A stretch of DNA of 49,305 nt from an uncultured Planctomycetota bacterium (lineage in GTDB: Bacteria; Planctomycetota; UBA1135; GCA-002686595). The stretch is from assembly GCA_903892045.1 (NCBI GenBank), contig CAITGX010000061.1, positions 1 to 49,305 on the forward strand, read 5' to 3'. Within the stretch, counting starts at the first letter, position 1; the number at the start of each line of letters is the position of its first letter. The translations under genes and the position numbers were made by a program. Below the pieces are notes generated by a model that was not told where the DNA came from, searched no databases, and saw only the letters and a program-made list of their open reading frames with translations. This document shows positions 4,486 to 25,801 of this stretch, piece after piece.

Positions 4486-6870
4486 TCACGGGCAGCTGTC
4501 GTTGGCGCTGCCCGGCGTTCCGTGGTCCGGATTGCTGGCGCTGATGACCGACGACGCTGCGCACCAAGCATTGCCGCTGTTGTTGCCGCTCGCCGACAGC
4601 ACTCCGGAGCGCAGGCTCAGCGACGAGCCGGTCACGTCCGGCCAGAGGAAGCCGTTGTCGTACTCGATGCGGTCGATCTCGACGTTGCCGGGCGCGACCA
4701 GCACGACCTCGTCGTCGGCGTTGTCGAGCTTGAACAGCGTCCAGTCCCAGTCGTAGCCCGCGGTGATGCCGCCGTTGGTCGCCAAGTCCGTGTTGGAGGC
4801 GATCACGAGGAACCGGCCCGCGGCGACGTACAGCCCGTTGCCGCCGTTCGAGAGCACGATCGAATCCGTGCCGTTGTCGCGCAGCGTCCAGCCCTCGAGG
4901 TTCACGATCGATGGACTCGCGTTGTAGAGCTCGAGCCACTCGCCGCTCGAGTCCGCGACCACGCTCGGGTCCTTCATGACCTCGGTGATCACGATGTCGC
5001 CGGGCGCCGGCGGGCCCGGCAGCGGGCAGAACTGGACATCGAGGGCACTGGAGAGGCCCACGTTGCTGCCATCGGCCACGAACGGATCGCGGAACCAGAA
5101 CTGGTAGCAGCGGCGCGTGCCCGCCATGCTCGCGTCGATCGGGATCGGATACGTCACCGAACCGGCGAGGCTCGTCACGCTCACGCCCATGCGCTTGACC
5201 GGCGTCTTGCACCACAGCGTTCCGCCGGCAAAGGGCTTCTGGTCGCGCGCGAAACCGTAGAAGAGGATGGTCGACTTCTGCGGCAGCGCGTTCTGCAGCG
5301 TGATGGCGAAGTCGTTGGTGTCGACGCTCGGCGTGCCGCTCCACGCCACCGTCGGCAGCGTGCCGTTGCTCGTCAGCTTTCCGGTTCCGTAGGCCACGGG
5401 CGGCGGGCACGTACCGATGCCGTTCTCGTTCTGGCTCCACGGGGTACCGCGATCGCCCCCAGCCCATGAAGTCGTGCACGCGGCGAAGTTGTTGGGCAGC
5501 GCCGGACTGGCAGGCGCGATCCTCTCCGCGCTCACGCCCGGCGCGATCGTCACGGCGCCCGCTCCCCAGCTGAAGGTCTCGAGCGTCGTGCCCGCGGAGC
5601 TCTTCATCGAGAGCGAGCCGCTCGCGTTCGGCAGCGAGAACTGGCGCCACGGAGCACCGACACCGAGGAAGAAGTCTCCGTTGCGCGACGGGCGACCGTC
5701 GAGGCCGACGACGAAGCGCTCGCCCGCGGACAGCACGACCTGACTCGCCACGCGGAACGACTGCGTGCCGTTCGAGAGCTCGAGACCGCCGAGATTGAGC
5801 GTCGTCGACGAGTAGTTCACCAGCTCGATCCACTCGGCCTCCGCATCCGCGAAGGCCAGCGGATCGACCAGCACCTCGTTGATCGCGACCTGACCGGGAC
5901 CGGCCAAGGTGCCCGGCTGCTCAAACGTGGCAAAGTCGACGGACTCGGGATGCCCGGGGCTCGCGGCCCGGAACGCGCTCCCGTTGGAGGTGATCACCAC
6001 GTGGCTCGAGAGCGCGTTGAAGCCGCCCGGATCGCCGCCCAGCGTGACGCTCGCTGTCTCGCCATCCGTGGTGCACCACTGCACGCGCGTCGCCGCGCTG
6101 GTGCTCCAGTTGTTGACCACGGACTCCGCCGGGTGGCCGTAGGGGTTGTCGTGACCCGCGGAGTGGACCACGAGGCTTGGGTTGAGGTTGGCGACCACCG
6201 TCGCGGACGAGCTCGACGGCGAGCCGTGGTGCGAGCTGATCGCGACCTCGACCTGTCCGATCCACGCCGTCACCGGGCCCTCGACGTTGGGCGTCGAGAG
6301 ACCACCCGAGGTCAGGTCGCCCGCGACGTACAGGTCGAAGTCGCCGTAGCGCAGGACCATGCCCAGCGAATGGGCATTCTCCTCGCCCGAGACGTTGACT
6401 GTACCCGTGGGATGCACGCCATCGCGCGACACGAAGGTCAGCGTGCAGCCGCCGCCGAGGTCGAGCACCTGCCCCTGCGCCGCGATGACGCGCTTGCCGC
6501 TGACCGCGTTCAGGTAGCTCGTGACGAAGCCGTTCGACGGCCGGTTCGTGTCGCCACGGTCGTAGGCTGCGAGCAGCGGCTTGTAGCCCGAGCTGTGGAT
6601 GTTCGTCAGGCCCCCGAAGTGATCGGTGTGCCAGTGCGTCATCACCGTGTAGTCGAGGCCGATCGTGCCGATCGACTGCAGGTACGGAATCACGATCGCC
6701 GCGCCGTCGCCCGGGTTGCCGCCGTCGATCAGGAGCCGCTTGCCGGTCGGGCTCTCGACGTACACGGACAGGCCCTGGTCCACGTTGATCACGTGCACCT
6801 CGAGTTCCTGAGCCGACAGGCAGGGCGTGGCGAGCGCCAGCCAGAGAGTGGTCAATGCAAGGGCGCGCAT
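4486..6870 (-). CDS. secreted ComEC-like metallo-beta-lactamase-fold hydrolase with two lamin-tail domains flanking an additional module
   Basis: Signal peptide; HVINVDQGLSVYVESPTGKRLLIDGG, THWHTDHFGG, ISSHHGS; LTD-like segments INEVLVDPLAFADAEAEWIELVNYSS and ITEVMKDPSVVADSSGEWLELYNAS. Confidence 0.88.
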   Translation of the reverse strand: MRALALTTLWLALATPCLSAQELEVHVINVDQGLSVYVESPTGKRLLIDGGNPGDGAAIVIPYLQSIGTIGLDYTVMTHWHTDHFGGLTNIHSSGYKPLLAAYDRGDTNRPSNGFVTSYLNAVSGKRVIAAQGQVLDLGGGCTLTFVSRDGVHPTGTVNVSGEENAHSLGMVLRYGDFDLYVAGDLTSGGLSTPNVEGPVTAWIGQVEVAISSHHGSPSSSSATVVANLNPSLVVHSAGHDNPYGHPAESVVNNWSTSAATRVQWCTTDGETASVTLGGDPGGFNALSSHVVITSNGSAFRAASPGHPESVDFATFEQPGTLAGPGQVAINEVLVDPLAFADAEAEWIELVNYSSTTLNLGGLELSNGTQSFRVASQVVLSAGERFVVGLDGRPSRNGDFFLGVGAPWRQFSLPNASGSLSMKSSAGTTLETFSWGAGAVTIAPGVSAERIAPASPALPNNFAACTTSWAGGDRGTPWSQNENGIGTCPPPVAYGTGKLTSNGTLPTVAWSGTPSVDTNDFAITLQNALPQKSTILFYGFARDQKPFAGGTLWCKTPVKRMGVSVTSLAGSVTYPIPIDASMAGTRRCYQFWFRDPFVADGSNVGLSSALDVQFCPLPGPPAPGDIVITEVMKDPSVVADSSGEWLELYNASPSIVNLEGWTLRDNGTDSIVLSNGGNGLYVAAGRFLVIASNTDLATNGGITAGYDWDWTLFKLDNADDEVVLVAPGNVEIDRIEYDNGFLWPDVTGSSLSLRSGVLSASGNNSGNAWCAASSVISASNPDHGTPGSANDSCP

Positions 6871-8262: not shown

Positions 8263-9543
8263 CTAGCCGGCGAGGAACGCGGCCAGGGCGCGCACCATGA
8301 GCGCAGGATCTTCCGCACCGCAGAGCTCGCGGATCGAGTGCATCGAGAGCTGCGCCGTGCCGACGTCGACCGTGCGCATGCCGAGGCGCGCGGAGGCGAG
8401 CGGCCCGATGGTGGTGCCACAGGCGAGGTTCGAGCGGTGGAAGTACTTCTGCACCGGCACGCCCGCGCGCTCGCAGGCGAGCTGGAACTCGGCCTCCCCT
8501 TCGGAATCCGTGGCATAGCGCGTGTTCGTGTTGATCTTGATCACCGGCCCCGCGTTGAGCGCGATCCAGTGCTCCGGCTCGTGCTTCTCGCGGTAGTTGG
8601 GGTGCGTGGCGTGCGCCATGTCGATCGAGGCACAGAAGCTCCGCGCGATCGCTCGGTGCACGTCGTCGCGCGTACCGCCGTCCGAGAGCACGAGCCGCTC
8701 GACCACGTCGACGAGCAGCGGCCCCTGCGCGCCCGAGCGCGAGGTGCTGCCCACTTCCTCATGGTCGAACAGGCACGCGATCGCGATCGGCGCCTTCGAA
8801 GGAGTGTGTGCGACGAGCGCCTCGAGCGCGCACCACGACGAGCACAGGTTGTCGAGCCGTGGCGAGCAGATCATTTCCTGCGCCGCGCCGAGGAACGAGC
8901 CCGGAGCCACGTCGTGCAGCATCAGGTCCCAGCTCAGGATGTCGTCCGCCCCACAGCCAAGTTCCTGCGCGAGGAAGCGCTGCAAGCCCTTCTCGTCGGG
9001 ACGACCGAGCCCCCAGACCGGCGACAGGTGCAGCTGCGGATCGAGCACCAGCCCGCGCGAGTTGACCTCGCGGTCGAGATGGATCGCGAGCTGCGGCACG
9101 CGAGCGAGCGGCCGATTGCAGAGGACCAGCCTCGCCGCGGGCCCCGACGGGGTGCGCACCATGACGCGCCCGGAGAGCCCCAGCTCCCGGTCGAGCCACG
9201 AGTTGAGCAGCACGCCGCCATACACCTCGACGCCGAGCTGCCGGAAGCCCGCGGCTCCGGTGTTGGGCCGAGCCTTGATGCGCAGGTTCGGGCTGTCGGT
9301 GTGGGCACCGAGCACGCGGAAGCCGCGCTCGACGGCCGGGGCGCCATCCCGCGACCATGCAAGCAGGCTGCCTGCGCGCCGCACGAAGCCCCGCTCGACC
9401 CCGCGCGGGAAGCTCGCGGCCTCCTGCACCTCGGTCCAGCCCGCCGCCGCAAGCCTTCGCGCGCCGTTTTCCACCGCGTGGAACGGGGACGGGGAGGCAT
9501 CGATGTAGGCACACAGGCTGCGGGCGCTCGCTCTCGGGTCCAT
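8263..9543 (-). CDS. M18 family aminopeptidase
   Basis: PSPFHAVENGARRL, VLGAHTDSPNLRIK, LFDHEEVGS, VFTHEGTIGPL-like FHRSNLACGTTIGPLASARLGMRTVDVGTAQLSMHSIRE. Confidence 0.93.
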   Translation of the reverse strand: MDPRASARSLCAYIDASPSPFHAVENGARRLAAAGWTEVQEAASFPRGVERGFVRRAGSLLAWSRDGAPAVERGFRVLGAHTDSPNLRIKARPNTGAAGFRQLGVEVYGGVLLNSWLDRELGLSGRVMVRTPSGPAARLVLCNRPLARVPQLAIHLDREVNSRGLVLDPQLHLSPVWGLGRPDEKGLQRFLAQELGCGADDILSWDLMLHDVAPGSFLGAAQEMICSPRLDNLCSSWCALEALVAHTPSKAPIAIACLFDHEEVGSTSRSGAQGPLLVDVVERLVLSDGGTRDDVHRAIARSFCASIDMAHATHPNYREKHEPEHWIALNAGPVIKINTNTRYATDSEGEAEFQLACERAGVPVQKYFHRSNLACGTTIGPLASARLGMRTVDVGTAQLSMHSIRELCGAEDPALMVRALAAFLAG

Positions 9544-10318: not shown

Positions 10319-12036
10319 AGCGCGCCCTCTCCGCGCTCGTCGCCGCACTCCTGTGCGCGTGCTCGGACCCCGAGCCGCGCTCGGTGTTGCTCGTCACGCT
10401 CGACACCACCCGGGCCGACACGCTCGGCTGTTACGGCGCGAGCCCCTCCGTCACGCCCCACATCGACGCGCTCGCGGCCGAGGGCGTGACCTTCGAGTGG
10501 GCGCGCACGGTCACCCCGACGACCCTGCCGGCCCACACGTCGATGCTGACGGGCCTGTACCCCAACCGCCACACGGTGCGGGACAACAGCCTGAGCGCCG
10601 TGCCGAGCGCTGCAACCACCGTGGCGGAGCTCGCCTCCGCGGCCGGCATCGCCTGCGGCGCCTTCGTCTCCGCCAAGGTGCTCGACCGCACCTTCGGGCT
10701 CGATCAGGGCTTCGCGCACTACACGCAGCCGGCCCGCGAGAACGATGTCGTGACGAGCACCGGATTCGCCACGCGCAGCGCGGCGGACACGGCCGCGGAC
10801 GCCGCAGGCTGGATCGAGTCGCTGCCCGCGGAGCGCTCGTTCTTCGCTTGGGTGCACTTCTTCGATCCGCACCAGCCTTGGACCGCCGGCGAGGAGTGGC
10901 TCGCCAAGGCAAAAGGCAATCCGTATCTCGCCGAGGTGGCCGCGACGGATGCCGCCGTCGGGGCGCTGGTCGATGCGCTGAAGCGCAGCGGGCGTCTCGC
11001 TCACACGACCATCGTGGTCGTCGGCGACCACGGCGAGGGCCTCGGCGAGCATGGCGAGGACTCGCACGCGTACTTCGTGTACGACTCGACGCTGCGAGTG
11101 CCGCTGGTCCTGCGACGCGGCGATCGCTCGCGCGCCGGCGAGCGCGTGTCGACGATGACCAGCGTGGTCGACGTCGGCCCGACGATCTGCGAAGCGCTCG
11201 GCATCCGTACGCTCGCCGACGCCGACGGGCAGAGCCTGTACTCCCAAGTGCCCGACGCCGCGCGCGGCGTGTACTTCGAGTCGTTCTACGGGCTCTTGCA
11301 CTACGGCATGGCTCCGCTCGTGGGCTGGGTCGACTCGCGCGGCAAGTACATCCACTCGTCCACCTCGGAGTTCTACGAGCCGCAGCGGGCTCCGCGCGAG
11401 CCGCGCAGCCTGCTCGACGAGCGCAGTGCCGTGGCCGCTGCGCATCGCGAGCAAATCGCGCGCACGCTGGCGCGCCCGGCGCTCGAGCAGGGTGCGTCCG
11501 TCCAAGGAGACGCATCGCTCCTGCGCAACATCGAGGCCCTCGGCTACGCGAGCGCGCCAGCCTTCAGCGGTGCGCTGCCGGATCCCCTCGCGCCGAGCGA
11601 GCGGCCGAGCCCGCACCAACGCGCCGACGAGCTGCGCACCTGCGATCAGGGACAACGTCTGTTCGAGCGCGGTCGCTTCGCGGACGCCGAGCGCTTGCTC
11701 GAGCGCGTGGCGCGCGAGAACCCGGACAACACCTTCGCTCTCGAGTTCCTCGCCCACTGCCAGATGCGCCTTGGCAAGTTCCGCGAGGCGCGCGAGAGCT
11801 TCGAGCGCGCGCTCGAGCGCGGCCAAGAGCGCGCGCCCACCCTGCGCGGCCTTGGCTACGCGCTGCAGCGGCTTGGCGAGACCGAGGCTGCCCGCGAGCG
11901 CTGGACGCGCGCCGCCGAGCTCGATCCGAGCGACCTCGAGACCCTGCGCATGCTGCTGCAGCTCGCTCTCGAAGCCGGCGACACCGCCGCCGAAGCCCGC
12001 TGGCGCTCTGCCTTGAAGGCCGCGTCGACTCCCTGA
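10315..12036 (+). CDS. alkaline-phosphatase-superfamily ('sulfatase-like') lipoprotein with C-terminal TPRs
   Basis: MKRALSALVAALLCACSDPEP; VLLVTLDTTRADTLGCYG, TPTTLPAHTSMLTGLYPNRH, VVVGDHGEGLGEHGE; TPR region LAHCQMRLGKFREARESFERALERG. ATGA overlap with the upstream stop. Confidence 0.88.
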   Translation: MKRALSALVAALLCACSDPEPRSVLLVTLDTTRADTLGCYGASPSVTPHIDALAAEGVTFEWARTVTPTTLPAHTSMLTGLYPNRHTVRDNSLSAVPSAATTVAELASAAGIACGAFVSAKVLDRTFGLDQGFAHYTQPARENDVVTSTGFATRSAADTAADAAGWIESLPAERSFFAWVHFFDPHQPWTAGEEWLAKAKGNPYLAEVAATDAAVGALVDALKRSGRLAHTTIVVVGDHGEGLGEHGEDSHAYFVYDSTLRVPLVLRRGDRSRAGERVSTMTSVVDVGPTICEALGIRTLADADGQSLYSQVPDAARGVYFESFYGLLHYGMAPLVGWVDSRGKYIHSSTSEFYEPQRAPREPRSLLDERSAVAAAHREQIARTLARPALEQGASVQGDASLLRNIEALGYASAPAFSGALPDPLAPSERPSPHQRADELRTCDQGQRLFERGRFADAERLLERVARENPDNTFALEFLAHCQMRLGKFREARESFERALERGQERAPTLRGLGYALQRLGETEAARERWTRAAELDPSDLETLRMLLQLALEAGDTAAEARWRSALKAASTP

Positions 12037-12093
12037 GAGCATTTCGCACGGCCGTTGCCCCGAGGCCGTCGCGCACAGTACAAGACGGCCGGT

Positions 12094-13590
12094 ATGAAGC
12101 GCGCTGCCATCGACACCGTCGCCGCCGTCGACCTCGGGTCGAACAGCTTCCACATGGTCGTGGCGCAGCTGCACCACGAGGAGCTGCGCATCATCGACCG
12201 GCTGCGGGAGCGCACGGCCATCGCGGAGGGGCTCGACGAGAGTGACCGACTGAAGAGCAAGGTCGCCGAGCGCGCGCTCGAGTGCCTCGGGCGCTTCGGC
12301 CAGCGGCTGTCCCACATGCCCGCGGACTCCGTGCGGGTCGTCGGCACGAACACCCTGCGACGCATGCGCGACTCGCGCGCCTTCCTCGCCAAGGCCCGAC
12401 AGGCGCTCGGGCACCGCATCGAGGTGATTTCCGGCCGCGAGGAGGCGCGCCTGATCTACCTCGGCGTCACGCACGCCCACTCCGACGACTCCCGGCGCAA
12501 GCTCGTGGTCGACATCGGCGGCGGCAGCACCGAGTGCATCCTCGGGGAAGGCCCGGAGATCCTCGAGAGCGACAGCCTGCAGATGGGCTGCGTGCGCTGG
12601 TCGATGCAGTACTTCCCGGACGGCGAGATCACCAAGGAGCGCATGCAGAAAGCCCAGATCGCGGCCGGTCTCGAGCTGCAGGGCATCGCGCGCCGCTACC
12701 GGCGCCTCGGCTGGGAGAGCGCCATCGGCTCGTCGGGCACGATCGTCGCCTGCGAGGAGATGGTGCGCGCCGCGGGTTGGTCGATCCGCGGCATCACGGA
12801 CAAGTCGCTGCGCAAGCTGCGCAAGGCGCTGGTCGATGCGGGGCACCCGAGTCGCCTGCAGCTCCCCGCCCTGCAGGCCGATCGCGCGCCGGTGCTCGCC
12901 GGTGGCGTCGCGGTGCTGTCCGCGATCTTCAAGATCCTCGACATCGACGTGCTGCACGCGAGCCCGGGCGCCCTGCGCGAGGGCGTGCTGCACGACCTCC
13001 TCGGCCGCATGAAGCACGAGGACGTGCGCGAGCCCACGATCCGTTCCTTCGCGCGCCGGTACCACGTCGATCTGGAACAGGCGGGCCGGGTGGAGCGCAC
13101 GGCCCTCGCCCTGCTGACTCAGGTCGCGCCCACCTGGGAACTCGAAGGCTCCGCGCCTGCGCGCGTCCTGTCGTGGGCGGCACGGCTGCACGAGATCGGC
13201 CTTGCCATCTCCTACTCGGGCTACCACCGGCACGGCGCGTACCTTCTCGCGCACTCGGACATGAGCGGCTTCTCGCGCGAAGACCAGACCCAGCTCGCTG
13301 CACTCGTCGGCAATCACCGGCGCCGCCCCGATCGCGCAGGCTTCGACGACCTGCCGGCGGACCTGCTCGAGCCCTCGCTGCGCATGACCGCCATCTTGCG
13401 GCTCGCCGCACGCCTGCACCGCAGCCGCTCGCCCCGCCCGCTGCCCAAGTTCGACCTGTTCGTGCGCCGCAGCGAGCTGCGGCTCGAGTTCGAGCGCGAC
13501 TGGCTCGACGCGCACCCGCTCTCGCGCGCCGAGCTCCAGGAAGAGGCCGAACAGCTGCTGTCGCTCGGCTTCGAGTTGCGCTTCGCCTGA
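12094..13590 (+). CDS. ppx: exopolyphosphatase (Ppx/GppA family)
   Basis: AAVDLGSNSFHMVVAQL, VVGTNTLRRMRDSRAFL, VISGREEARLIYLGV, LVVDIGGGSTECILG; C-terminal HD-like region. Confidence 0.93.
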   Translation: MKRAAIDTVAAVDLGSNSFHMVVAQLHHEELRIIDRLRERTAIAEGLDESDRLKSKVAERALECLGRFGQRLSHMPADSVRVVGTNTLRRMRDSRAFLAKARQALGHRIEVISGREEARLIYLGVTHAHSDDSRRKLVVDIGGGSTECILGEGPEILESDSLQMGCVRWSMQYFPDGEITKERMQKAQIAAGLELQGIARRYRRLGWESAIGSSGTIVACEEMVRAAGWSIRGITDKSLRKLRKALVDAGHPSRLQLPALQADRAPVLAGGVAVLSAIFKILDIDVLHASPGALREGVLHDLLGRMKHEDVREPTIRSFARRYHVDLEQAGRVERTALALLTQVAPTWELEGSAPARVLSWAARLHEIGLAISYSGYHRHGAYLLAHSDMSGFSREDQTQLAALVGNHRRRPDRAGFDDLPADLLEPSLRMTAILRLAARLHRSRSPRPLPKFDLFVRRSELRLEFERDWLDAHPLSRAELQEEAEQLLSLGFELRFA

Positions 13591-20012: not shown

Positions 20013-21848
20013 ATGCGCCACTTCACCCAGGCCGCGGCCCTCGCCGCGCTCGCCCTCGCGGCCGCCACTCCCTCGGCCGTCGCCCAGACGCTGCAGGCCA
20101 CGCTGTTCAAGAACGGCTTCTCGCAGCCGGTGTTCCTGTGCTCGCCTCCGGGCGACACGACGCGCCAGTTCGTCGTCGAGCAGGGCGGCAAGATCCGCAT
20201 CATCAAGAATGGCGTCACGCTGACGACCAACTTCCTGAACCTCGGCACGGCTGCGAGCGGTGGCCTCGCCAAGATCTCCACCGGCAGCGAGCGCGGCCTC
20301 CTCGGCCTCGCGTTCCACCCGAACTACGCGCAGAACGGCTACTTCTACGTGAACTACACGGCCGCCGGCAGCGGTGCGACGGTGGTCGCTCGCTATCAGG
20401 TCAGCTCGACGAACCCGGACGTCGCGGCCACCACCGAGACGGTGCTGCTCACGATCGCGCAGCCCTTCTCCAACCACAACGGCGGCTGCATCCAGTTCGG
20501 CCTCGACGGCAAGCTCTACATCGGCATGGGCGACGGCGGCAGCGCCAACGACCCCAACAACGCCGCGCAGAACACCAACTCGCTGCTCGGCAAGATGCTG
20601 CGCCTCGACGTCAACCTGCCGGCCCCGTACATCCCGGTCGACAACCCCTATGTGGGCGCCGGTGCCCCGCTCGACGAGATCTGGCACATCGGACTGCGCA
20701 ACCCGTTCCGCTTCAGCTTCGACCGCCAGACCGGTGACATGTACATCGGCGACGTCGGCCAGAACGCGGTCGAGGAGATCGACTTCGCGCCCGCCGGCGC
20801 GAGCGGACGCAACTTCGGCTGGCGTTGCATGGAAGGTACGGCGAGCACGGGCCTCACCGGCTGCACCCCGAACTCCCCGGCCCTCACGCCCCCGCTGCGC
20901 GACTACACGCAGGCCTCGGGCGGCCACTGCTCGGCCATCGGCGGCTACGTCTACCGCGGCTCGACCATCTGTGGCCTGCAGGGCACCTACTTCTACGCGG
21001 ACTACTGCTCGAGCGCGATCTGGTCGCTGCGCTACGTGAACGGCGTGGTCTCGAACTTCACGCTGCGCACCACGGAGCTCGAGCCCGCCGGAACGCCCAC
21101 GATCAGCTCGATCAGCTCGTTCGGCGAAGACGCCAGCGGCGAGATCTACATTCTCGATTACACGGACGGCGAGATCTACCGCATCGACCCCGCCGGCGGC
21201 GCCCTCGACTGCAACACCAACGGCATCGCCGACGGCTGCGACCTGCAGAACGGTACCTCGCTCGACTGCAACGCGAATGGGCTTCCGGACGAGTGCGACA
21301 TCGCGAACGGTACGGCGGACTGCAACGGCAACGGCCGCCCCGACAGCTGCGACATCGCCTCGGGCGCCGCGGACGTCAACGCCAACGGCATCCCCGACAG
21401 CTGCGAGTGCCAAGGTGGTACGCCTCCGGCCATCTATTGCACGGCCAAGATGAACAGTCAGTTCTGCGTGCCGGCGATCGGCTTCCAGGGCAACCCGAGC
21501 CTCTCGGGCACGGGCCCCTTCCGCATCACCGCCACGAACCTGCTCAACAACAAGCAGGGACTGCTGTTCTACGGCCACGCACAGGCCGCCGTCCCCTTCC
21601 AGGGCGGCACGCTGTGCGTGCAGAGCCCGGTCAAGCGCACCGCTGCGAGCAGCACGGGCGGCAGCGCCACGGGCAACAACTGCACCGGAACCTTCAACTA
21701 CGACTTCAAGGCCCTGATCAGCTCGGGCGTCGATCCTGTGCTGCAGGTCGTCGGCCAGTCGGTCAACGCCCAGATCTGGAGCCGTGACCCGGCCGACGCC
21801 TTCACGACGAACCTGACCAACGCGGTCCGGTTCCAGATCTGCCAGTAG
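20013..21848 (+). CDS. secreted PQQ-type sugar (glucose/sorbosone) dehydrogenase-like protein with DCNxNG repeats and C-terminal module
   Basis: Signal peptide; SERGLLGLAFHPNYAQNGYFYVNYT, HNGGCIQFGLDGKLYIGMGDGG, EIWHIGLRNPFRFSFD, GDVGQNAVEEIDF; repeats DCNTNGIADGCDLQNG / DCNANGLPDECDIANG. Confidence 0.92.
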   Translation: MRHFTQAAALAALALAAATPSAVAQTLQATLFKNGFSQPVFLCSPPGDTTRQFVVEQGGKIRIIKNGVTLTTNFLNLGTAASGGLAKISTGSERGLLGLAFHPNYAQNGYFYVNYTAAGSGATVVARYQVSSTNPDVAATTETVLLTIAQPFSNHNGGCIQFGLDGKLYIGMGDGGSANDPNNAAQNTNSLLGKMLRLDVNLPAPYIPVDNPYVGAGAPLDEIWHIGLRNPFRFSFDRQTGDMYIGDVGQNAVEEIDFAPAGASGRNFGWRCMEGTASTGLTGCTPNSPALTPPLRDYTQASGGHCSAIGGYVYRGSTICGLQGTYFYADYCSSAIWSLRYVNGVVSNFTLRTTELEPAGTPTISSISSFGEDASGEIYILDYTDGEIYRIDPAGGALDCNTNGIADGCDLQNGTSLDCNANGLPDECDIANGTADCNGNGRPDSCDIASGAADVNANGIPDSCECQGGTPPAIYCTAKMNSQFCVPAIGFQGNPSLSGTGPFRITATNLLNNKQGLLFYGHAQAAVPFQGGTLCVQSPVKRTAASSTGGSATGNNCTGTFNYDFKALISSGVDPVLQVVGQSVNAQIWSRDPADAFTTNLTNAVRFQICQ

Positions 21849-21868
21849 CGCTCCCGACCGATCCTTCC

Positions 21869-21901
21869 GGGGCCGGCGCGCCGTTGCGGCGCGCCGGCCC
21901 C
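21869..21901 (+). terminator. strong hairpin downstream of the GSDH-like gene
   Basis: Perfect 14-bp stem GGGGCCGGCGCGCC-gttgc-GGCGCGCCGGCCCC starting 21 nt after the stop codon; short T run follows (gtcgctttc). Confidence 0.75.
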
Positions 21902-22180
21902 GTCGCTTTCCCCCCCTTGCGACTTCAGGGCCGCCACCTCGCGTTGGGCGCGTGGATGGTGTGCGCGGACCACCCTGCGTCCGCGTGGTCGCAGGAGGAC
22001 GCTCTCGACGCCCGCCGCGAAACTGCAGCGGATAGCCCCAATTCCGCGCGCGGCGCTGGATTCAGTCCGTCGGAGGGCCTCTGTTCCCAGGAACGTGCTG
22101 TCCAGTTCCGCTCGCGCGTGTCACTTCCCTGTGAGGGCGGCGTCGCGGATGGCGCGACCCTCCCAACCGAGTCCGCAACC

Positions 22181-23893
22181 ATGAGGCACACCGACGCCCC
22201 CCTGCTGCTCGTCGCCTGCACCCTTGCCGTCCCCTGCTTGGGGCAGACCCAGATCTTCTCGAACTCTGGCGCGAATGCGGATGTCGCTCGCGGTCAGTCC
22301 GTCGCCGGTGGCGCGGATTTCGATGGCGACGGCTTCGACGACCTCGTCGTTGGTACCCCGCGCGCCGACACGTCCGGCAAGACCGACAACGGGCTCGTGC
22401 AGGCCATCTCCGGCCAGACCGGAGCAGTCCTGTTCCAGCGCGCGGGCGACAGCTCGGACGACCAGTTCGGTTGGAGCCTCGCGCTCGCCGGGGACGTGGA
22501 CAACGACGGCGTGGTGGACGTCATCGTGGGCGCCCCGTTCGCGGCGAACGCGAGTGGCGTCGCCACCGGTATGGCCCGCGTGCTCTCGGGCGCCACAGGC
22601 TCGATCCTGCGCACGTTCTACGGACTCGCCGCCGACGATCGCTTCGGCTGGCCCGTCGATGGCGCCATCGACACCAACAACGACAGCTTCGCAGACGTGA
22701 TCATCGGGGCACCCGACGGAGACACGACCCAGATCAGCGGCTGTGGCTACGTGAGCACGTACTCGGGCGCGAACGGCGCGCTGTTGCTGCGCATCCTCGG
22801 CACCACGGTATCCGCTCGTTTCGGCGCTGCGGTGGCGGTGATCGGGGACATCACGGCCGATGGCCGTCGCGACTTCGCCGTCGGAGCGCCCGGCCATGCT
22901 GGCAAGGGCCGCGTGACGGCCTACAACGGATTGTCGGTCACCGGCTCGTTGCTCGTGCCCTGGTCCTTCGACGGCGCGAACGCCGGCGACGAATTCGGCT
23001 GCGCCATCGACGGCCTGTTCGACATCAACGGAGACGGGTTCGGCGAAGTGGCCTGCGGCGCGCGAGGCGAGGACTCACCGAGCGCCACGGACGCGGGATC
23101 CGTGACGATCATCGGCGGCTTGGCCGGAGGTCAGGCCGCAAAGGTGTTCGGAGCGGCAGCCGCTGCGAATCTCGGCTCCAGCGTGGCGGTGATCGGTAAC
23201 GTGAACAACTTCGTGGCGCGCGACATCCTTGCTGGCGCTCCAGGCCTCGACATGGTGCTGGTGATCGATTCGGCTACGGGTGCGCCCTTGATCGAGCTCT
23301 ATGGCCAGAACGGGACGCGCTTCGGTCAGGCGGTCTCGGATGCCGGTGACTTCAACAACGATGGGGCCGTCGACTTCGCCGTGGGCCAGCCGGGTTTCGA
23401 TGCTTCCGGCTTGCCGAACAACGGGCGCGCGGTGGTGTACTCGTCCACGCCGTGGGTCACGCGCTACTGCACCTCGGGGACGAGCAGCAACGGCTGCACT
23501 CCGACGCTCTCGTGGTCGGGCCTGCCGTACGCATCGGCAACCTCTGGGTTCCTGCTGACGGCGAGCGGCCTCGAAGGCCAGAAGTCCGGCCTGTTCTTCT
23601 ACGGACTCAGCGGGCGCCAACCGGTCCCGATCGTGTGGGGCAACAGCTCCAGCTTCCTGTGCGTCAAGGCCCCCACTCAGCGCTGCGTGGCGCTGTCCAC
23701 GGCGGGCAACGCGGGCTCCTGCAACGGCTTCCTCGTCTTCGACTGGCTGTCCTACCGCTCCGCGAATCCGACGGCACTCGGTGGCCCGCTGAATGCCGGC
23801 GAGCTCGTGCAGGCCCAGGGCTGGTACCGCGATCCGCCGAGCGCGAAGACTACGCAGCTCACCAACGCGGTGGAGTTCCTGCTCGCGCCTTGA
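22181..23893 (+). CDS. secreted FG-GAP (integrin-alpha-like) repeat protein with C-terminal module
   Basis: Repeats GADFDGDGFDDLVVGTPRAD, GDVDNDGVVDVIVGAPFA, FDINGDGFGEVACGARGE, GDFNNDGAVDFAVGQPGF; signal peptide MRHTDAPLLLVACTLAVPCLGQ. Confidence 0.92.
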   Translation: MRHTDAPLLLVACTLAVPCLGQTQIFSNSGANADVARGQSVAGGADFDGDGFDDLVVGTPRADTSGKTDNGLVQAISGQTGAVLFQRAGDSSDDQFGWSLALAGDVDNDGVVDVIVGAPFAANASGVATGMARVLSGATGSILRTFYGLAADDRFGWPVDGAIDTNNDSFADVIIGAPDGDTTQISGCGYVSTYSGANGALLLRILGTTVSARFGAAVAVIGDITADGRRDFAVGAPGHAGKGRVTAYNGLSVTGSLLVPWSFDGANAGDEFGCAIDGLFDINGDGFGEVACGARGEDSPSATDAGSVTIIGGLAGGQAAKVFGAAAAANLGSSVAVIGNVNNFVARDILAGAPGLDMVLVIDSATGAPLIELYGQNGTRFGQAVSDAGDFNNDGAVDFAVGQPGFDASGLPNNGRAVVYSSTPWVTRYCTSGTSSNGCTPTLSWSGLPYASATSGFLLTASGLEGQKSGLFFYGLSGRQPVPIVWGNSSSFLCVKAPTQRCVALSTAGNAGSCNGFLVFDWLSYRSANPTALGGPLNAGELVQAQGWYRDPPSAKTTQLTNAVEFLLAP

Positions 23894-24335
23894 TTGCAAA
23901 GCTCCCGCAGGTCTCGCGGGCCACGGGCGCGCGAATCTCCGCAGGCCGCACGCGGCATCAGCAGGTCCGTTCGTGAGCCAAGGGTGCACTCAGCTCCAGT
24001 GACTCGTCTCGAGTAAGGCGGCTTGTGAGCCGCATCGAGAGTGCGGAGCCAACTGGCCATCGTACTACTGCGGGCGAGTCGCGCGCTTCAGCCCGTGCAG
24101 GCGCCCAACCCGAGAGTCCTCGCCTGACGCGCTCCTCGAGACTCTGGCTGAGCCCGCAGCGAATGCCGTGCGTGCCTCGCCGATGCGAGCCAGCGCCTTG
24201 CAACGAAGAGACGGCATGAGCCACTCGAAAGGCCCGGCCGATCGCATCGCAGATGCGGCACGCGCGGACACTCGACCTGCGCGAGGGGCGGCGGAACGCC
24301 CGCGATCCGCGCAGGGCACTGCTCGAGAAAAAGCC

Positions 24336-24368
24336 GAGCGGCGCCTCCCACGCGGGGAGGCGCCGCTC
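24336..24368 (-). terminator. intrinsic terminator for the 24413-25801 minus-strand gene
   Basis: Perfect 14-bp stem GAGCGGCGCCTCCC / GGGAGGCGCCGCTC, 5-nt loop; on the minus strand followed by GGCTTTTTCTC. Confidence 0.85.
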
Positions 24369-24412
24369 GTTGTGCTCGCTGCGGCGATCACGCGGACCGC
24401 CGCGCTAGCCGA

Positions 24413-25801
24413 TCACGGGCAGAGCGTGATCTCGAGGGCGTCCGACAGGTGCGTCGTCTTCGGAGCCGGCGGGTCGCGGAACCACGCCTGGATGTCGAAG
24501 AGACCGCCAGCGGCGACCGGGAAGCCGGTCTGCAGGGCGAGCGCCGCGTTGATGTCGAGGCTGAGCGTGCCGTCGCAGGCGTTCGCCGTGCCACCCGTCG
24601 CCTGGACGCCCGAGCGGATCGTCGGCGACTTGACGCACAGGAAGCTCGACGACGTCGGGCTCCAGGCCGTGGCCTGACGCGCGATGCCGTAGAAGATCAG
24701 GCCCGTCTTGGCGCCTTCGACGTTGGTCGCGGCGACGATCGCCGGACCGGCGTTGCTGGCGCTCGGGATGCCGCTCTGGAGCGTCATCGTCGCGTTGCAG
24801 CCGTTCGACGTCGTGCCGGCGGTGCAGTAGTTGACGGCCGTGGCCGCGCAACCGCCGCAGGAGCCGTTGTTGCCCATCTTCATGTAGAAGCCGCTGAAGG
24901 GGTTGCCCGGCGCGCCACCGAACCAGTAGCAGCCCGTGCCGCCGCCCGGAGCGGAGACGCAGCCCGTGCCGGCCGAGAGGCCGCCACCGGCGAGGTCGTT
25001 GTCGACGTTGATCCAGAAGCCGTCGTCGTTCGCGAGGCCCGAGCCGCAGGGGTTGCCGTACAGCGGGTCCGCCGAGCACGGCACGTTGTACGTGCACGAA
25101 CCGGGGATCGTGGCGAAGGGCTCGCCCGAGAGCAGGATGCCCTGCGTCACGGTGTTGTCCATCTGCCACGACCAGTTGAAGCGGTCGAGGTCGGCGTTGT
25201 TGTCGTAGATTCCATCGCCGTCCGAGAGCATGCAGAAGCCCGTGTTGCCGAGGTCGAAGCCGACCACCCAGCACTGCAGGCCGCCCGTCGACGTGCCGCC
25301 CGGCATCGTCGCGATCGGCAGCTGGAACACGGCACCCTGCGTCGTCAGCGCCGGCGGGATCGGAGCAGGCGGGAAGCCGCCGCACTGACCACCGAGCGAG
25401 TCATAGAAGCCGACCTTGATGTCGACCGTGCCCGCGGCAGCCGCGGTGCAGTAGCCGACTTCGAAGAACGTGACGTTGTTGTCGGTCGTCGCGCCCGTCG
25501 GGGCCGTACCACCGATGCCGCCGGGGATGCGACCCTCGTCGATGTAGTCCTCGCACACGCCGGTGCCGGTGTAGAAACCGCCGCCGGTCCAGGTGCAGGT
25601 GTTGTCGTAGATGTAGTTGGTGACCGCGCGAACCTGAGCTTCGCGCGCGGGGCTCACCGGCTGGCCGGTGCGCAGGTTGATCACCGGGCCGCGCTGAACG
25701 GCACCGGGAACCGGGTAGACATTGTCCACCTGTTGAGCGAAGCCCGCGCCGCACATCATGGCGGCCGCAGCTGCGATCAGGGTCGAACGAACCATGTACA
25801 T
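24413..25801 (-). CDS. secreted Cys-rich protein of unknown function with C-terminal module
   Basis: Signal peptide MYMVRSTLIAAAAAMMCGAGFAQ; Gly/Cys-rich body; C-terminal NYCTAGTTSNGC...GLIFYGIA...FLCVKSPTIR...WFRDPPAPKTTHLSDALEITLCP. Confidence 0.85.
   Translation of the reverse strand: MYMVRSTLIAAAAAMMCGAGFAQQVDNVYPVPGAVQRGPVINLRTGQPVSPAREAQVRAVTNYIYDNTCTWTGGGFYTGTGVCEDYIDEGRIPGGIGGTAPTGATTDNNVTFFEVGYCTAAAAGTVDIKVGFYDSLGGQCGGFPPAPIPPALTTQGAVFQLPIATMPGGTSTGGLQCWVVGFDLGNTGFCMLSDGDGIYDNNADLDRFNWSWQMDNTVTQGILLSGEPFATIPGSCTYNVPCSADPLYGNPCGSGLANDDGFWINVDNDLAGGGLSAGTGCVSAPGGGTGCYWFGGAPGNPFSGFYMKMGNNGSCGGCAATAVNYCTAGTTSNGCNATMTLQSGIPSASNAGPAIVAATNVEGAKTGLIFYGIARQATAWSPTSSSFLCVKSPTIRSGVQATGGTANACDGTLSLDINAALALQTGFPVAAGGLFDIQAWFRDPPAPKTTHLSDALEITLCP

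Follow-up and report, generated by a model that had tools for sequence, protein, structure and literature searches.

An apparently undescribed C-terminal module of secreted proteins in Planctomycetota and its possible role as a sorting or anchoring tail

The type IX secretion system (T9SS) includes the SprA translocon and the PorV shuttle. The C-terminal domain (CTD) of its substrates in Bacteroidota is an immunoglobulin (Ig)-like beta-sandwich with the targeting signal in the last 22 residues (PMC4804311, PMC10202324). The MYXO-CTERM/myxosortase and GlyGly-CTERM/rhombosortase systems use short C-terminal tags with a transmembrane segment that are common to many surface proteins per genome (PMC11980579, PMC3237569). 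PEP-CTERM, paired with exosortase, is likewise a many-to-one C-terminal tag on secreted proteins. Here we describe a module of similar habit, found in four proteins encoded by a 49,305-nucleotide stretch of DNA (the window) from an uncultured freshwater Planctomycetota bacterium (assembly GCA_903892045.1, contig CAITGX010000061.1). To our knowledge, protein transport to the cell surface has been little described in this phylum. The reading we favour, with a probability of roughly one half, is that the module is a C-terminal sorting or anchoring domain of secreted proteins, similar to the T9SS CTD in its action and belonging to a separate family.

The module and its host proteins

A first-pass annotation of the window had claimed that a segment is shared by four secreted proteins with otherwise unrelated bodies, and had placed a divergent copy within a metallo-beta-lactamase (MBL)/lamin-tail (LTD) protein at about 5020-5410. 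All four segments lie where it had put them (Table 1). They are 123-142 residues long and match each other by BLASTP at E = 1.5e-9 to 5.5e-36, with 31-45% identity, whereas the best match among the four host bodies is at E = 0.37, so that the bodies are unrelated. A hidden Markov model (HMM) made from other genomes only recovers all four window modules at E = 3.5e-18 to 9.6e-55 and lists none of the reversed decoy sequences. Three of the copies are exactly C-terminal. Copy 1, of the YCTAKMNSQFC type, has the four conserved cysteines, while the internal copy 4 has lost them; a stretch of 178 residues with a second LTD domain comes after it.

The hosts differ widely. In host 1 the signal peptide is followed by a GSDH domain (residues 50-388; Pfam GSDH, 2e-37), then by DxNxNGxPDxC repeats and finally by the module. 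Host 2 begins with the signal peptide MRHTDAPLLLVACTLAVPCLG, and the body of host 3 matches no family in Pfam or NCBIfam profile searches. Host 4, possibly an extracellular nuclease, matches Lactamase_B (1.4e-9) and, in two stretches, LTD (6.4e-30) in Pfam, as well as ComEC_Rec2 in NCBIfam at 6e-19, which is under the family cut-off.

The genome to which the window belongs, as contig C61, has 4.44 Mb in 487 contigs, is 91% complete and holds ~105 copies of the module. A single module used as a query finds 95 places and a broad profile gives 110 matches including a few fragments, while an iterated HMM run on the DNA around the matches places 98 module domains in open frames. The stop codon is visible for 93 of these 98, the other five reaching contig ends, and 91 of the 93 terminate their host protein; among these 91, two leave one residue to spare and four are short 3'-end duplicates. 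The only two non-terminal copies with a visible stop are the MBL copy of the window and the one at L047. The same position is found in other Planctomycetota genomes (80 loci), where the stop can be seen for 147 modules and 145 of these form the end of the protein, some short duplicates included. Divergent copies behave alike, with 31 of 32 finishing 0-3 residues from the protein end. Of 203 full-length copies, 178 (88%) have proline as their last residue.

Another order of domains is seen at a few loci. At L047:445-1953 (-) and L144:10021-11490 the signal peptide is followed by the module and then by an FGE-sulfatase-like domain, and at L172:1156-2559 by the module and then by lamin-tail-like domains (domain names read from the sequence).

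Hosts of the module are secreted and varied. A strict A-x-A rule finds signal peptides in 123 of the 182 hosts whose 5' end is complete and in 2 of 167 internal-methionine controls; a loose rule finds them in 167 of the 182 hosts but also in 47 of the 167 controls. In the source genome 58 host bodies match 45 Pfam families, and the families among the matches listed are nearly all extracellular. The cargo includes subtilases, proprotein-convertase P domains, M28 and M10 peptidases, endonuclease I, legume-type lectins, FG-GAP and PD40 propellers, TSP3 repeats and PHB esterase. The earlier expectation of many C-terminal matches on diverse signal-peptide proteins within one clade is thus borne out.

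Table 1. Positions of the module copies and their host proteins in the window, and of examples, among others, of the structured element described in the last section
Feature	Sequence	Positions	Strand	Description
Host 1	Window	20013..21848	+	Secreted glucose/sorbosone dehydrogenase-like protein, 611 aa; N-terminus/signal peptide MRHFTQAAALAALALAAATPSAVAQ
Module copy 1	Window	21435..21845	+	137 aa; HMM independent E-value (i-E) 3.3e-50; 0 residues after module (stop codon)
Host 2	Window	22181..23893	+	Secreted FG-GAP beta-propeller protein, 570 aa from ATG 22181; Pfam FG-GAP 2.3e-37
Module copy 2	Window	23465..23890	+	142 aa; HMM i-E 3.8e-49; 0 residues after module (stop codon)
Host 3	Window	24413..25801	-	Secreted protein, 462 aa, Cys-rich body
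Module copy 3	Window	24416..24829	-	138 aa; HMM i-E 1.4e-48; terminates at stop codon
Intrinsic-terminator-like hairpin	Window	24335..24369	-	15 pairs then T-rich tail; ~44 bp after host 3
Host 4	Window	4486..6870	-	Secreted ComEC-type MBL protein, 794 aa, two LTD domains
Module copy 4	Window	5023..5391	-	123 aa; divergent, internal; HMM i-E 2.3e-28
Structured element	L023	4953-5088	-	
Structured element	L022	3560-3697		
Structured element	L017	164-298	-	
Structured element	L010	4950-5080		
Structured element	L113	6430-6777		
Structured element	L106	6430-6564		
Structured element	L146	1902-2035		

Fold, conservation and history of the module

The first-pass annotation knew of no named family for the module. 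Searches with single copies and with profiles agree, giving no credible match in Pfam, NCBIfam, PHROGs or PDB sequences, and a description of the domain was not found in the published literature searched. Sequence and structure prediction together suggest that the module is most likely an undescribed beta-sandwich domain of ~125-140 residues. AlphaFold2 produces confident models for copy 3, from an alignment of 129 modules (predicted local distance difference test (pLDDT) 95.6, predicted template modelling score (pTM) 0.89), with seven strands and a short helix, and for copy 4, the most divergent in the window (pLDDT 95.1, pTM 0.88), with nine strands by DSSP. The order of strands is alike in the two models and, with the homology, argues for a single predicted fold. 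Neither model has a Foldseek match in the PDB at E <= 0.001. The best matches (E ~0.006-0.01; TM-scores ~0.46 and 0.51) are to assorted beta-sandwiches, and the weak ones include ester-bond adhesin repeats and structures of lytic polysaccharide monooxygenases (LPMO) and carbohydrate-binding modules (CBM). The module thus shares a general beta-sandwich class with the Ig-like and fibronectin type III (FnIII)-like folds of the PDB, among which Foldseek picks out no specific relative.

The four cysteines seem to work as two pairs. In 215 aligned rows all four are present in 203, C2 and C65 alone in six, and C11 and C85 alone in one. Since the members of each pair, 2/65 and 11/85, are retained or missing together, the alignment points to disulfides C2-C65 and C11-C85, although the informative cases are few and possibly of shared ancestry. 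A common disulfide-bonded beta-sandwich, as had been proposed for the four segments, therefore fits the confident models of two of the copies and the paired cysteines. Outside the cysteines, R72, Q114, R118 and D119 are near-invariant, and the last 25 residues (QxWxRDP...LSNALxFxxxP, ending in the terminal proline) are among the most conserved in the module.

Local tandem duplication as the source of the window copies is rejected, as none of them is the closest relative of another. Within the genome, the nearest relative of copy 3 is on another contig (62% identity, against ~47% and 37% for its two neighbours in the window), and so copy 3 did not arise by local duplication. Orthologues of host 3 occur in four other genomes (L082-L085), with bodies 67-92% and modules 79-90% identical. 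Because these modules are closer to copy 3 than its nearest in-genome paralogue is, at least copy 3 predates the species, and the common tail is therefore not the product of a recent spread. The ratio of nonsynonymous to synonymous substitution rates (dN/dS) is ~0.28-0.40 for the module in the orthologues, a range similar to that of the body, and the orthologous modules are under purifying selection.

The module is spread across a clade. A first profile finds from 79 to at least 100 copies in genomes of the same genus and at least 61 in most other genomes of the family, some having only 0-7. The module-poor relatives carry a divergent and mostly Cys-poor form which is likewise C-terminal. A profile that includes these forms (A5; threshold E <= 1e-6) matches 80 genomes in a sample of 392 from the Planctomycetota, comprising all those sampled from the source family and order plus several other families, and has no match in the rest of the sample.

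Sorting, anchoring or binding

If the module is a sorting or anchoring tail, its action may be pictured as follows. The signal peptide would lead the host protein through Sec to the periplasm, where the module would fold with its two disulfides; the folded module, and especially its last 25 residues, would then be recognized by an outer-membrane machine or a surface receptor, and the host would be exported or retained at the cell surface. This reading is favoured because a Sec signal, varied cargo and a folded terminal domain are together the hallmark of a T9SS substrate, and because the last 25 residues are conserved. It is preferred over a generic adhesion domain because the C-terminal position is near-absolute. 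Thus, of the earlier proposal of a portable extracellular domain serving in adhesion, matrix or cell-envelope attachment, the portable and extracellular parts agree with the cargo and the signal peptides, whereas generic adhesion gives way to a sorting or anchoring tail.

Several points weigh against such a tail. No export machine has been identified for the module proteins, and no conserved processing site is seen upstream of the module. About 2% of copies are internal, and the module comes first in the L047 and L144 proteins, so that the extreme C-terminal position is not obligatory. A sandwich fold with no significant Foldseek match also tells little about function, and the sequence would be compatible with an export signal, a surface anchor and ligand binding alike.

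Somewhat more tentatively, a large Planctomycetota clade may have its own undescribed outer-membrane export or surface-anchoring system with substrates defined by the module, a counterpart of T9SS that would have arisen separately and would serve ~100 substrates per genome in the source family. This would be a second case in which proteins are generally tagged for export or anchoring by a C-terminal beta-sandwich. The presence of the module on ~100 proteins per genome would provide a substrate list, a defined stretch to mutate and bait with which to pull down a receptor, and annotation of the C-terminal domain would reach thousands of proteins that now have none.

Secretins are present in all 25 genomes tested, with 4-10 per genome, and provide a possible route for module proteins, though not one that is singled out. 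On contig C478 of genome G000 (L221:1061-3628, 8321-9088 and 10491-13235), two secretin genes ~9.6 kb apart have a MotA/ExbB-type proton channel between them, and many genomes of the order have secretin pairs with similar spacing. That this locus is machinery exporting the module proteins is a guess.

The main rival is that the module is a plain extracellular binding domain, for carbohydrate, matrix or self-association, which tethers enzymes to a substrate, a biofilm matrix or an envelope polymer with no need of a secretion machine. We consider this a lesser but substantial possibility. The extracellular enzymes and lectins among the cargo suit it, as do the beta-sandwich fold with its weak Foldseek matches to ester-bond adhesin repeats, LPMO and CBM, and the few copies that adjoin the signal peptide rather than the C-terminus. 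However, such domains are usually found at either end of proteins, internally or in tandem, whereas only ~2% of module copies are non-terminal, and there is no dominant class of cargo, the same tail being carried by propellers, nucleases and proteases.

An improbable alternative is that the module caps its hosts for folding or stability, the disulfide-bonded domain with its terminal proline guarding them against proteolysis. The two predicted disulfides, the proline found in 88% of copies and the many secreted hosts would be in keeping with such a cap, but a cap does not easily account for the near-invariant R72, Q114, R118 and D119, nor explain why Cys-poor members of the superfamily hold the same C-terminal place.

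Direct membership of the known T9SS CTD family is very unlikely. The module resembles type A and B CTDs in being a C-terminal beta-sandwich present in many copies per genome, at the extreme end of signal-peptide proteins with very different bodies, and so shares their position, style of cargo and general class of fold (PMC10202324, PMC4804311). However, it is longer, has conserved cysteine pairs and belongs to a phylum other than Bacteroidota. The CTD is a seven-strand Ig-like sandwich; the confident models of the module show seven to nine strands, and neither has a significant Foldseek match to an Ig-like structure. The type A (TIGR04183/PF18962) and type B (TIGR04131/PF13585) profiles match neither the window proteins nor 40 diverse modules. 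SprA was not found in the source genome, nor SprA_N in 41 genomes, the control genomes holding no species that gives a match.

The sortase-like tags differ more plainly. The module is a folded domain whose C-terminus is the last strand of the globule (as in ...FTLCP), with none of the PEP motif, transmembrane helix or basic tail of PEP-CTERM, and, unlike the short MYXO-CTERM and GlyGly-CTERM tags, it is globular and has no transmembrane segment. Exosortase is present in 152 of the 392 sampled Planctomycetota genomes, while PF09721 has no match in the three same-genus genomes sampled (G000, G001 and G004). An exosortase route is rejected, since exosortase is unlinked to the module, occurring (by a hand count) in 34 of the 80 genomes with the module and in 118 of the 312 without it.

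The module as the variable target of a diversity-generating retroelement is hardly tenable: near-identical copies of the gene's own 3' end do occur 210-245 bp downstream of some module genes, and hairpins stand in the interval, but only 4 of the 24 differences over 17 repeat pairs are at an A of the downstream copy, a substitution pattern that largely refutes the idea, the element-bearing genomes G003 and G010 have no RVT_1 match (reverse transcriptase being present in only some element-bearing genomes), and orthologous modules are under purifying selection.

A structured element downstream of some module genes

In a minority of module genes the stop codon is followed by a structured DNA element of ~135 bp, which usually shares the strand of the gene and begins 13-27 bp beyond the stop. 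The element ends in CTTACC, and directly after it the 3' end of the same gene is repeated from the FRDP codons onward, with 93-100% identity over 45-92 bp; this arrangement was seen in 14 of 17 cases examined. Two units stand in tandem at L113. In an alignment of 13 elements, 18 of 48 pairs show compensatory changes. The element has no Rfam family at the gathering score and was not found within the window. When eight whole genomes were searched with a covariance model, five had 13, 18, 13, 9 and 11 copies and the other three, which are module-rich genomes of other genera, had none. Of the 30 element loci returned, 28 adjoin a whole or partial module end and the other two are near contig ends. 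The element resembles a small mobile element or repeat that targets the module gene and regenerates the gene end, with the caveat of repeat assembly in metagenome-assembled genomes.

A giant frame of 24,335 aa in genome G001 (G001:C2:80509-80934 and upstream; L223, L224) was set aside, being a run of masked N rather than a giant protein. The codons around WFRDP in some two dozen module genes form a perfect inverted repeat of 10-18 bp with the sequence just after the stop codon, so that the repeat encloses the 3' end of the gene, as at L017 (C457), L022 (C414), L091, L101, L110, L131, L139 and L146.

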